A stretch of DNA of 64,000 nt from Planomonospora sp. ID82291 (GTDB lineage Bacteria; Actinomycetota; Actinomycetes; Streptosporangiales; Streptosporangiaceae), in contig NZ_JABTEX010000002.1 of the NCBI RefSeq assembly GCF_015711645.1, positions 744,001-808,000 of the forward strand, read 5' to 3'. The notes beneath the pieces are model-generated. The model did not search any database. It saw only the letters and a list, made by a program, of their open reading frames with translations, and had not been told where the DNA came from. Below are positions 13,310 to 34,907 of this stretch, piece after piece; within the stretch, counting starts at the first letter, position 1; the number at the start of each line of letters is the position of its first letter. The position numbers were made by a program, and so were the translations under genes.

Positions 13310-13360
13310 ATGCATCACCGTGGGATTCGCGTAGTACTTCGCCGGCGCGCAGGCCGTTAA
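13310..13360 (+). CDS. ilvB leader peptide with Ile-Val-Val-Leu control codons
   Basis: A 16-codon ORF, MHHRGIRVVLRRRAGR, preceded by GGTGGAG. Codons 6-10 include ATT, GTA, GTA and CTT. These are branched-chain codons, and all four end in A or T, which is rare in this genome; that fits ribosome stalling when charged Ile, Val or Leu tRNA is scarce. The peptide is followed at once by a terminator and then ilvB. Leader-peptide attenuators before ilvB have been predicted in other actinobacteria. I am confident of the sequence; its translation is inferred. Confidence 0.75.
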   Translation: MHHRGIRVVLRRRAGR

Positions 13361-13424
13361 GCGAAGCACTCCGACCTGCGCGCCGCCCCGGCTCCGCCTC
13401 TCGTAGGCGGACGGGGCATTTTTT
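13337..13424 (+). promoter_or_regulatory. Transcription attenuator of ilvBNC
   Basis: The terminator stem is GCCCCG...CCGCCT (13385-13399) with AGGCGG.CGGGGC (13405-13417), followed by six T residues (13419-13424). Upstream there are two mutually exclusive pairings. CTTCGC 13337-13342 can pair with GCGAAG 13361-13366. The perfect 11-base CGGCGCGCAGG 13343-13353 can pair with CCTGCGCGCCG 13375-13385, which includes leader codons and touches the terminator arm. A ribosome stalled on the Ile/Val/Leu codons would block the early stems. Which pairing acts as antiterminator is not certain. Confidence 0.75.
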
Positions 13425-32380: not shown

Positions 32381-33034
32381 TCAGCGCTTCCGGATCATGG
32401 TCAGGCCGTCGGCCATGGGGAGCATGATCGAGGTGGTCCGGGGGTCGGCCATGACCATGTCGTTGAACTCGCGCATCACCTGGGTGGTCTCGTCGCGCTC
32501 CTTGGGGCGGGCGACCTTGCCCTCCCACAGGGTGTTGTCGACGAGGATCACCCCGCCCGGTGCCAGGACGGACATCAGGATCTCGTAGTAGACCGGGTAG
32601 CCGGGCTTGTCGGCGTCGATGAAGGCCAGGTCGACGGGAGGGCCGCCGACCAGCTCGCGCAGCCGTACCGCGGCCGGGCCGAGCCGGAGCTCGACGCGGT
32701 CGGCGACCCCGGCCTCCTCCCAGTAGCGCCGGGCCACCGCGGTCCACTCCTCGTCGGCGTCGAAGCAGGTCAGCCGGCCGCCGGGAGCCAGGCCGCGGGC
32801 CAGGCAGACGGAGGAGTACCCGGTGAAGGTGCCGACCTCCACGGCGTTCCGGGCGCCGGAGATCTGCGCGATCATGGTGAGGAAGCGGCCCTGGTCGGGG
32901 GCGATCTGCATGTTCGCCCGCTCGCCCATGAGCTCGCGCGTCTCCACGGCCAGGGCGTCCAGCAGCTCGTCGGGCCGGGCGGTGTGCGCGAGCAGGTACT
33001 GCCCGACGGCCGGTTCGAGGTAAGTCGCCTTCAT
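32381..33034 (-). CDS. O-methyltransferase, CCoAOMT-like family
   Basis: A 217-residue SAM-dependent O-methyltransferase of Methyltransf_3 type. NAVEVGTFTGYSSVCLARGL is SAM motif I near residue 65. LAFIDADKPGYPVYYEIL and GGVILVDNTLWEGKV carry the metal-binding aspartates and asparagine of catechol/caffeoyl-CoA O-methyltransferases. The substrate is unknown; such genes are widespread in actinomycetes. It converges with ilvE and is divergent from the cimA leader. The Shine-Dalgarno is weak. Confidence 0.88.
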   Translation of the reverse strand: MKATYLEPAVGQYLLAHTARPDELLDALAVETRELMGERANMQIAPDQGRFLTMIAQISGARNAVEVGTFTGYSSVCLARGLAPGGRLTCFDADEEWTAVARRYWEEAGVADRVELRLGPAAVRLRELVGGPPVDLAFIDADKPGYPVYYEILMSVLAPGGVILVDNTLWEGKVARPKERDETTQVMREFNDMVMADPRTTSIMLPMADGLTMIRKR

Positions 33035-33159
33035 CCGGCCATTCTCGCCGGTCCGAGTCGATCTCCCGGGAGGGGCCCCCTCCCGCCGGGCCGGGCCGTA
33101 CGTCTCGGATCCCGAGATCAATGTGTCAGCTGGTGGCCGCGTATGGCAGACTCGGCATC

Positions 33160-33201
33160 ATGTTCTACGGTCTGCTCATTATCGGCAGGCGCGCCGGCTG
33201 A
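33160..33201 (+). CDS. cimA leader peptide with Leu-Leu-Ile-Ile control codons
   Basis: A 13-codon ORF, MFYGLLIIGRRAG, with consecutive CTG CTC ATT ATC codons, followed by a hairpin and a terminator and then cimA. Its C-terminal GRRAG resembles the RRRAGR end of the ilvB leader, and in both the Arg/Ala/Gly codons form the 5' arm of the downstream hairpin. No strong ribosome-binding site is seen, so the leader may be translated from a leaderless start. Confidence 0.75.
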   Translation: MFYGLLIIGRRAG

Positions 33202-33252
33202 AAAGGGACACCGCCGGCGCGCAGACCTCTCACGTCCGTGAGGGGTCTTTTT
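33189..33252 (+). promoter_or_regulatory. Transcription attenuator of cimA
   Basis: Perfect 10-base arms GCGCGCCGGC (33189-33198) and GCCGGCGCGC (33213-33222) form the first hairpin, which overlaps the last leader codons. The terminator stem AGACCTCTCACG (33223-33234) with CGTGAGGGGTCT (33237-33248) follows at once and ends in TTTTT (33248-33252). Ribosome position on the Leu/Ile codons would decide which structure forms. Confidence 0.78.
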
Positions 33253-33329
33253 GCTTCCCGGGGCCGGACGGGTGCTTCCCGGGGCCGGACGGGCGCGCGG
33301 CGATCACCGCACCGCGAAGGAGATCCTCG

Positions 33330-34907
33330 ATGACCGACGACCGCTTCCACGTCTACGACACCACGCTCCGGGACGGGGCGCAGCAGGAGGGCCTCAACCT
33401 GACGGTGGCCGACAAACTGGTCGTCGCGCGCCACCTGGACGGCCTGGGCGTCGGGTTCATCGAGGGCGGCTGGCCCGGCGCGAACCCCAAGGACACCGAG
33501 TTCTTCCGGCGGGCTCGGACCGAGCTCGACCTGAAGCACGCGCAGCTCGCCGCGTTCGGCGCGACCCGCCGGGCGGGCGTGAAGGCGGCCGACGACCCGC
33601 TGGTCGCCGCGCTGCGCGAGTCCGGCGCGCCGGTCGTGACCCTCGTCGCCAAGAGCCACGACCGGCACGTCGAGCTGGCCCTGCGCACGACCTTGGAGGA
33701 GAATCTCGCGATGATCCGCGACACGGTCTCCCACCTCCGGGCGGAGGGCCGGCGGGTCTTCGTCGACGCCGAGCACTTCTTCGACGGCTACGCCTCCAAC
33801 CCGGCCTACGCCCTGGAGGTCCTGCGGACCGCCGCGGAGGCGGGCGCCTCGGTGGTCGCGCTCTGCGACACCAACGGCGGCATGCTCCCCGACGAGCTCG
33901 CCGAGGTCGTCCACGAGGCGGTCGGCACCGGTGCCCGCGTCGGCATCCACTGCCACGACGACACCGGCTGCGCGGTGGCCAACACGCTGGCCGCGGTCAA
34001 GGCCGGCGCCACCCACGTGCAGGGCTGCGCCAACGGGTACGGCGAGCGCTCCGGCAACGCCAACCTGTTCACCGTGGTGGCCAACCTCCAGCTCAAGCGG
34101 GGCTACGACCTGGTGCCGCGGGAGGCGCTGGCCGACATGACCCGCATCGCGCACGCGATCACCGAGGTGACCAACGTCACCCCGAACTCCCACGCCCCCT
34201 ATGTCGGGGTCTCCGCCTTCGCGCACAAGGCCGGGCTGCACGCCAGCGCGATCAAGGTCGACCCCAACCTCTACCAGCACATCGACCCGGCCCAGGTCGG
34301 CAACGACATGCGGATGCTCGTTTCCGACATGGCCGGACGCGCCTCGGTCGAGCTCAAGGGGCGCGAGCTGGGCTACGAGCTGTCGCCCGAGACCTCGCGC
34401 GACCTGGTGGACCGGGTCAAGGACCTGGAGGCGCGGGGCTACACGTTCGAGGCGGCCGACGCCTCCTTCGAGCTGCTGCTCCGCGACACCGTGGCGGGCG
34501 AGCGCAGGCGGCACTTCGCGGTCGAGTCCTGGCGGGTCATCGTCGAGCGCACGCGCGGCGGCGAGCTGGTCAGCGAGGCCACCGTCAAGCTGCACGCCAA
34601 GGGCGAGCGCATCGTGGCCACCGGCGAGGGCAACGGCCCGGTCAACGCGCTGGACCGGGCGGTGCGGGCCGGGCTGGAGCGGCTCTACCCGGAACTGGCC
34701 GGGGTCGAGCTGATCGACTTCAAGGTGCGGATCCTGGAGGGCACCCACGGCACCGACGCGGTCACCCGCGTGCTGATCACCTCCAGCGACGCGACCGCCG
34801 AATGGGCGACCGTGGGCGTCGACGAGAACATCATCGAGGCCTCCTGGCAGGCCCTGGAGCAGGCCGTCACCTACGGCCTGCTGCGCGCGGGGCACGAGGC
34901 GGACTGA
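33330..34907 (+). CDS. cimA: (R)-citramalate synthase (LeuA-like)
   Basis: A 525-residue enzyme of the HMGL-like acyltransferase family. [21 protein letters not shown] is the catalytic start of the TIM barrel, [19 protein letters not shown] carries the metal histidines, and [12 protein letters not shown] is characteristic. Length and the C-terminal LeuA dimer/regulatory domain fit CimA/2-isopropylmalate synthase-like type enzymes, which make citramalate from pyruvate and acetyl-CoA for isoleucine. GAAGGAGA lies seven bases before ATG 33330. The leader peptide with Ile and Leu codons supports a branched-chain role. A homologous role as 2-isopropylmalate synthase is less likely because the classical LeuA is a different, longer type. 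Confidence 0.92.

Follow-up and report, generated by a model that had tools for sequence, protein, structure and literature searches.

The window analyzed here is the whole 64,000-nucleotide stretch of Planomonospora sp. ID82291 DNA (contig NZ_JABTEX010000002.1, positions 744,001 to 808,000 of the forward strand), and all positions are counted from its first letter. Within it, a short open reading frame (uORF) and two adjacent hairpins lie upstream of the gene for citramalate synthase, cimA. The features of this region are as follows.

32381-33028, opposite strand to cimA: O-methyltransferase gene, the next gene upstream of the leader
33144..33152, plus strand: promoter-like motif TGGCAGACT, a likely -10 region, 7 nt 5' of the leader ATG, with a similar motif in relatives
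33160..33201, plus strand: predicted leader peptide ORF MFYGLLIIGRRAG and stop codon (ATG at 33160, TGA ending at 33201), kept in relatives
33172-33183, plus strand: codon run CTG CTC ATT ATC, comprising Leu-Leu (33172-33177, less conserved) followed by Ile-Ile
33178..33183, plus strand: predicted sensor codons ATT ATC (Ile-Ile), found in 77 of 78 distinct loci
33189..33198, plus strand: arm A of the first hairpin, GCGCGCCGGC, within the leader ORF and covarying with arm B
33213..33222, plus strand: arm B of the first hairpin, GCCGGCGCGC, a 10-nt exact reverse complement of arm A that directly adjoins the terminator
33223..33252, plus strand: predicted intrinsic terminator AGACCTCTCAC-GTCC-GTGAGGGGTCT (arm C 33223-33233, loop 33234-33237, arm D 33238-33248), with covariation
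33317..33322, plus strand: Shine-Dalgarno-like AAGGAG of cimA, read from the sequence
33330..34907, plus strand: cimA, citramalate synthase, 525 amino acids

The cimA product contains HMGL-like and LeuA_dimer domains and scores 650.1 bits against TIGR00977 (cut-off 450); its score against leuA_bact (242.2 bits) is below the cut-off of 598.7, and the LeuA models listed are all under theirs. A first-pass annotation of this DNA had preferred cimA to leuA and had taken the leader as support for that choice. The call is sustained because of the protein profile scores, not because of the leader. Besides cimA, the same genome encodes a threonine dehydratase that passes the ilvA_1Cterm cut-off (425.8 bits against 378.75), and thus both routes to 2-oxobutanoate seem to be encoded there.

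The terminator helix (C:D, 33223-33248) consists of 11 pairs, one of which is G-U, and is followed by a T run (U-tract) at 33248-33252; the distance from the terminator end to the cimA start is 78 nt. The Leu/Leu/Ile/Ile codons, the perfect 10-base arms and the T5-ending terminator that had been described from the letters of the sequence were all recovered exactly, at the same positions. When 33155-33256 is folded as ribosome-free RNA, the A:B and C:D hairpins both form together (z -4.73), and none of 200 shuffled sequences is as stable. Between 32700 and 33500 there is one terminator-like site, compared with a mean of 0.1 (sd 0.3) in shuffled sequences. A whole-genome search with the cimA-leader model gives 87.2 bits at this leader, which itself belongs to the training set of the model, and 14.9 bits at the next best place. 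At the gathering score, Rfam yields only three tRNAs across the 64-kb window and no riboswitch, T-box or leader family; a match to Atu_C8, a Rhizobiales sRNA, at 33156-33259 (29.1 bits, below the gathering score of 50) was taken as chance similarity. A scan around the cimA leader detects no sigma-70 consensus site.

Conservation was analyzed in 110 cimA loci, of which 30 are from genomes of the same family (the best 30 by score, with a cimA match in 145 of 150 family genomes) and 80 are from a collection with record titles (the best 80 of at least 593 cimA loci); some of the 110 are identical (L008 and L031). A scan that sought a hairpin next to a terminator at a spacer of -1 to 3 nt, with no condition on codons, detects the layout in 86 of the 110 loci (the stem of L068 being mis-parsed, with the leader present), and L011 and L044 carry it by eye, resulting in 88 of 110 loci in all. 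This conservation is the decisive evidence that the predicted leader is real. The first-pass annotation had proposed a leader-peptide attenuator before a true cimA gene, to be refuted if orthologues lacked the codon runs and the terminator; the comparison does not refute it, as the codon run and the terminator are conserved, with Ile-Ile kept and both helices covarying.

Of the 22 loci without the element, 19 are located behind ilvE and one, L100, is cut off 77 nt upstream of cimA. The other two, L081 and L102, are truly without it: both have upstream space of their own before cimA, yet the scan finds no element there, which counts against the attenuator reading. In the 19 loci, ilvE ends 2-133 nt upstream on the same strand, and therefore these cimA genes probably have no promoter of their own. 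A same-strand ilvE is also present within the fetched DNA in 35 of the 88 element-bearing loci, and is never less than 140 nt away. Because 19 of the 22 element-less loci are behind ilvE, presence of the predicted element follows whether cimA has its own upstream region; once the loci directly behind ilvE and the truncated one are set aside, 88 of the remaining 90 sampled cimA loci carry it. The carriers include Streptosporangium, Nonomuraea, Actinomadura, Thermobifida, Nocardiopsis, Nocardioides, Kribbella, Aeromicrobium, Knoellia and one Streptomyces (Streptomyces sp. SID12501, L062), with nearly the same leader as the last at L122-L132. Long inserts in the A:B loop are seen in L050 (81 nt; about 1297-1450) and L062 (49 nt; about 1245-1361), in which the arms, the sensor codons and the terminator are all kept.

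Ile-Ile is present in 77 of 78 distinct cimA loci, and the gap from it to arm A is 5 nt in 72 of them, 6 nt in 4 and 8 nt in 1; the sole exception, L064, reads IAIL. The four-residue runs of these 78 loci are LLII (36), VIII (6), RIII (5), TIII (4), LVII (3) and rarer others, the Leu-Leu positions being occupied in other genera by V, R, T, S, Q, N, P, G, M and others. Because Ile-Ile is invariant while the preceding Leu codons vary, it is well supported that the cimA leader would sense isoleucine, not leucine. Leucine was rejected as a sensed amino acid on this ground, the Leu codons being a local feature, and of the joint leucine and isoleucine sensing originally suggested only the isoleucine part is retained.

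Of 73 distinct cimA leaders, 55 have a TGGCAGACT-like motif 6-10 nt 5' of a start codon, and the pattern search detects none in the other 18; in 51 of the 55, that start codon precedes the Ile-Ile pair by six codons. The closeness of this -10-like motif to the leader ATG suggests that the ORF is translated from a leaderless or nearly leaderless transcript.

Covariation was analyzed in an alignment of 41 of the 74 distinct cimA leaders, L068 and duplicates being left out. In this alignment 94.9% of cells are in standard pairs and 11 of 20 pairs are changed on both sides (83 cells), compared with 37.9-54.3% paired and at most 6 both-side-changed cells in slid controls; the predicted A:B and C:D helices both covary. 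Counted from the first nucleotide of the first Ile codon, arm A begins at a distance of 11 nt in 62 of 73 leaders (9-14 nt in all), and the spacer between arm B and arm C is 0 nt in 55, 1 nt in 15 and -1 nt in 3. In 25 of 73 leaders the stop codon comes 9 nt after the first Ile nucleotide, right at arm A; in the other 48 it comes 21-30 nt after that nucleotide, which places arm A in the translated frame. In the Planomonospora leader, GGAC at 33206-33209 in the A:B loop is complementary to GTCC at 33234-33237 in the terminator loop. A kissing loop of these two was rejected as a general feature: of 74 distinct leaders (L068 again left out), 38 have both motifs, 25 have neither and 11 have only one, and L041 and L042 break the complement. 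Such a loop might perhaps form in some lineages.

At the level of sequence, the uORF, Ile-Ile, the A:B and C:D hairpins, their spacing, conservation and covariation are established, and the predicted element is real, conserved and, in all likelihood, functional. It is probably a ribosome-mediated transcription attenuator through which the level of charged tRNA-Ile controls cimA. The transcript would start just before the leader ATG and be leaderless or nearly so. When isoleucine is plentiful, the ribosome would reach the stop codon and cover arm A, preventing A:B formation, and C:D would end transcription. When isoleucine is short, the ribosome would stall on Ile-Ile and its leading edge would come to lie where arm A begins, allowing A:B to form; with arm B touching arm C, the base of the terminator would be hindered by A:B, or by the stalled ribosome that A:B holds, and transcription would read through into cimA. 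Translation of the uORF, the response to isoleucine and antagonism of the terminator by A:B are steps that we infer.

The results of folding with a masked ribosome bear on parts of this scheme. Leaders were folded up to the terminator loop, with a mask extending from 15 nt 5' to 12 nt 3' of the start of the A-site codon, for 73 distinct cimA leaders (L068, L064 and duplicates having been dropped beforehand). The mean for A:B is 0.70 with the ribosome stalled (above 0.5 in 66 of 73) and 0.00 with the ribosome at the stop codon (above 0.1 in none of 73); in the 33160-33252 leader, A:B is at 0.80 with a stall at the first Ile codon and 0.47 at the second. Ribosome position toggles A:B in these models. 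Uptake of arm C by upstream sequence on stalling is found in none of the 73 leaders (mean 0.02), and at the stop codon its mean is 0.32 (above 0.5 in 2). For the same pairing, the E. coli controls give 1.0 (thr) and 0.75 (leu) stalled and 0.05 and 0.01 at the stop codon, and the ilv control gives 0.33 in both states, which marks the masked test as imperfect.

Masked equilibrium folding of the full leader was set aside as uninformative, and the truncated transcripts were used instead: it gives the terminator at 0.97-0.99 in every ribosome state of the 33160-33252 leader and keeps it in E. coli thr, leu and ilv too (0.82-0.97), and so cannot decide. Duplex energies in the 73 cimA leaders average -9.3 kcal/mol for upstream sequence with arm D, -4.1 kcal/mol for upstream sequence with arm C and -16.4 kcal/mol for the terminator. 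The terminator outweighs the arm C duplex in all 73 leaders and the arm D duplex in 71, with the reverse in 2; the corresponding values for E. coli thr and leu are -9.2 and -9.5 (arm D) and -21.9 and -11.8 kcal/mol (arm C). In the models, A:B, which adjoins the terminator, is the only ribosome-dependent structure detectable in cimA leaders. As the terminator is predicted in every state and arm C is never taken up on stalling, the antitermination step would rest on steric reasoning.

How A:B acts could be refined, and we tentatively consider a version, sharing in the probability of the attenuator itself, in which A:B loops out and the edge of the stalled ribosome is thereby at arm C, where it would block the terminator or push the polymerase through. 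A:B would then be no antiterminator alone, and the terminator would work in the absence of a ribosome. The start of arm A 11 nt past the first Ile nucleotide in 62 of 73 leaders is where a ribosome edge is expected, and all 73 leaders have a B-C spacer between -1 and 1 nt, even though spacers of up to 3 nt were admitted by the scan. The front-edge position of the ribosome is a textbook value, on which this refinement depends. It is also in line with the weak expression seen when the C. glutamicum leader is not translated (PMC11857589, available in part). In C. glutamicum ilvBNC, a start-codon mutant is reported to lose 80% of expression (cited in the available part of PMC11857589), and a bare A:B antiterminator would predict the opposite; we infer that the mutant favours the ribosome-plus-hairpin version over A:B alone for that leader.

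A classical attenuator, in which on stalling an upstream segment pairs with a terminator arm to form an antiterminator helix, is unlikely here. It has the same parts list, and E. coli thr and leu do show uptake of arm C in the same masked test; in the cimA leaders, however, this uptake is absent on stalling (0 of 73) and greater at the stop codon (0.32), which is the wrong direction. Pairing of GGTCT with AGACC is possible in the 33160-33252 leader, and pairings of this kind have been proposed for Corynebacterium ilvB (PMC11857589 and PMC10272879, in the parts available), but the GGTCT segment is not kept in relatives, and the candidate antiterminator GGTCTG (leader):CAGACC (terminator) was rejected for the same reason. 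The upstream duplexes, moreover, are weaker than the terminator in 73 of 73 leaders for arm C and in 71 of 73 for arm D.

Reverse polarity is very improbable: A:B would stack on the terminator and strengthen it, and stalling would lower cimA expression. Coaxial abutment could stabilize both helices, and both are present in the ribosome-free fold, but such a response would be physiologically perverse for a biosynthetic gene, and the matching of codons to genes (see below) fits feedback control. A constitutive terminator beside a chance uORF, or control at translation initiation, is hardly credible given Ile-Ile in 77 of 78 distinct loci, gene-matched codons elsewhere, and a terminator that ends 78 nt before the cimA start, with the upstream O-methyltransferase gene on the other strand.

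A leader of the same layout precedes ilvB in the window.

13310..13360, plus strand: predicted ilvB leader peptide MHHRGIRVVLRRRAGR and stop codon, with sensor codons GTA GTA CTT at 13331-13339
13331..13424, plus strand: predicted ilvB attenuator with the same layout as that of cimA (R1 match, 23.3 bits, E 2.9e-5 for 64 kb)

R1 is a model of cimA leaders only, made from the 41-leader alignment, and R2 was made from 44 matches including non-cimA leaders. The ilvB leader has the same parts, i.e., sensor codons, an A:B hairpin and an abutting terminator, and both hairpins are in its MFE fold; pairing of its arm C upstream is 0.45 stalled and 0.58 at the stop codon, with no clear switch. The cimA attenuator had been described as a second, independent one. 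It is indeed a second attenuator, but its independence does not hold, as R1 recovers the ilvB leader at 23.3 bits. In searches of the Planomonospora genome that were not exhaustive, since the ilvB leader was missed there too, R1 and R2 gave no further copy at E<1 beyond cimA.

Outside the window, R1 also picks up leaders of ilvB, leuA and leuS. R1 matches are present in 49 of 396 genomes of the phylum, and R2 matches at E <= 0.001 in 105 of these 396 and in 212 of 296 genomes of the class (96 of 114 genera). The gene downstream was typed by tblastn at 113 R2 places (110 distinct), picked towards non-cimA and second hits, and is cimA at 31, ilvB at 50, leuA at 7, leuS at 10, leuB at 7 and serA at 1, with no gene assigned at 4; the serA place is doubtful because the match begins 1.2 kb downstream behind another ORF. 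Among 10 downstream proteins checked against NCBIfam, 9 are over cut-off (leuA 4, leuB 2, leuS, cimA and ilvB), and that of L136 matches none. L136 was rejected as an ilvD leader: ilvD is divergent there, and ilvD was matched downstream of no typed R2 place, so that L136 is left unassigned.

The codons at the three sensor positions differ by gene: 76 Ile, 3 Leu and 6 Val of 93 codons for cimA; 82 Val, 41 Leu and 25 Ile of 150 for ilvB; Leu in 21 of 21 for leuA and 28 of 30 for leuS; and 13 Ile, 6 Val and 0 Leu of 21 for leuB. This table is not fully independent of R2, whose columns take in the codons and whose training set contained 18 of the loci typed later; the link to the gene, though, is not something that the model can create. 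In these predicted leaders, codon identity at one fixed position tracks the downstream gene. Of the 110 distinct typed places, 91 could be parsed (spacers of -1 to 4 nt allowed), and in 76 of these the hairpin and the terminator are -1 to 1 nt apart. In genomes of the class, models begun from cimA leaders recover the ilvB peptide TRILVLGKRVG and the leuS peptide VRLLLSEPR.

It is possible, as an extension of the attenuator reading that we hold with reserve, that a single modular Actinomycetota chassis, with codons swapped per gene, works by a hairpin-splinted stalled ribosome and without a classical antiterminator. This chassis would comprise three sensor codons and, after some 5 nt, a GC-rich hairpin followed without a gap by a terminator, with Ile codons for cimA and leuB, Leu codons for leuA and leuS, and Val-Leu-Ile for ilvB. 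If so, ribosome and hairpin would together block termination at the base of the terminator.

The closest published parallels are C. glutamicum ilvBNC and the Corynebacterium ilvB-II motif, which, in the parts of the articles available, likewise have a leaderless BCAA leader peptide, a hairpin beside the terminator and sensor codons just before it (PMC11857589; PMC10272879). The IlvL leader of ilvBNC has been described by a 'fast' three-hairpin model, in which antiterminator and terminator overlap at GCC (PMC11857589, in part). Unlike in that model, with its three shared nucleotides, the cimA spacer is 0, 1 or -1 nt in 55, 15 and 3 of 73 leaders (scan range, -1 to 3), and the hairpin arms of the 33160-33252 leader end without further pairs. 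For ilvB-II, the descending arm of the terminator is proposed to pair with the first loop (PMC10272879, in part); in the cimA leaders, by comparison, the duplex of arm D with upstream sequence is stronger than the terminator in 2 of 73, with a mean about that of E. coli thr and leu. C. glutamicum ilvBNC also serves another gene and another sensor amino acid than the cimA leader, and the published accounts, as far as they are available, cover ilvB only. E. coli thr and leu share with cimA a leader peptide and an intrinsic terminator, but their antiterminator is on the rising arm, which is not the case in cimA (0 of 73).

In Streptomyces lividans, an RNA-seq table contains eight leaders including IlvL (ilvBHC) and LeuL2 (leuS) and, in the part available, none for cimA (PMC8079986). 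Those two peptides match the TRILVLGKRVG and VRLLLSEPR recovered here, with sensor codons L-V-L and L-L-L as opposed to Ile-Ile in the cimA leader. The LEU element, reported before leuA in most Actinobacteria, is described in the available text as a pseudoknot whose base stem is at the Shine-Dalgarno box, with no typical terminator (PMC1262725; PMC8079986). Like the cimA element it has a leader peptide with a codon run, but a terminator closes the cimA element. Before seven of the leuA genes recovered here, the layout is that of cimA instead (L135, L203, L214, L227, L228, L232 and L239); in some actinobacterial lineages leuA carries a terminator-type leader with Leu codons. In S. clavuligerus, Term-seq has revealed 96 novel premature transcripts (PMC8269248, in part).

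No report of a cimA leader was found in the literature searched, supplements and most subscription papers being outside reach. A survey of attenuators by Lopatovskaya et al. 2010 (Mol Biol 44:128) might contain one. A term search of PMC1262725 gives no mention of cimA or citramalate; no cimA leader is described in the available parts of PMC8079986, PMC11857589, PMC13236596, PMC11109978, PMC8632094, PMC10272879, PMC8269248, PMC12452182, PMC13158618 and PMC13033682, and the available part of PMC4833913 contains nothing on the search terms. In S. coelicolor ilvB, changes of the regulatory codons have been reported to have no effect (PMC1262725, in part), which counts against the attenuator reading preferred here. 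More generally, actinobacterial BCAA leaders have been noted to resemble attenuators while attenuator parts seem to be missing (PMC1262725, in part), a puzzle on which the butt-joined hairpins bear.

Leader-peptide control is a known mechanism to which cimA, encoding the first step of the citramalate route to isoleucine, is a new, predicted addition; the hairpin arrangement is unusual and is common to several BCAA genes of the phylum. As the codons are matched to the genes, the identity of the sensor would be readable from the sequence. In the leuB leaders (L201, L202, L209, L216, L223, L225 and L236), the presence of Ile/Val and not Leu codons suggests that LeuB is controlled there as an isoleucine gene, as would be expected if it serves the citramalate route. 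The spacer of the leuB leaders is looser, at 1-4 nt in the five that were parsed.
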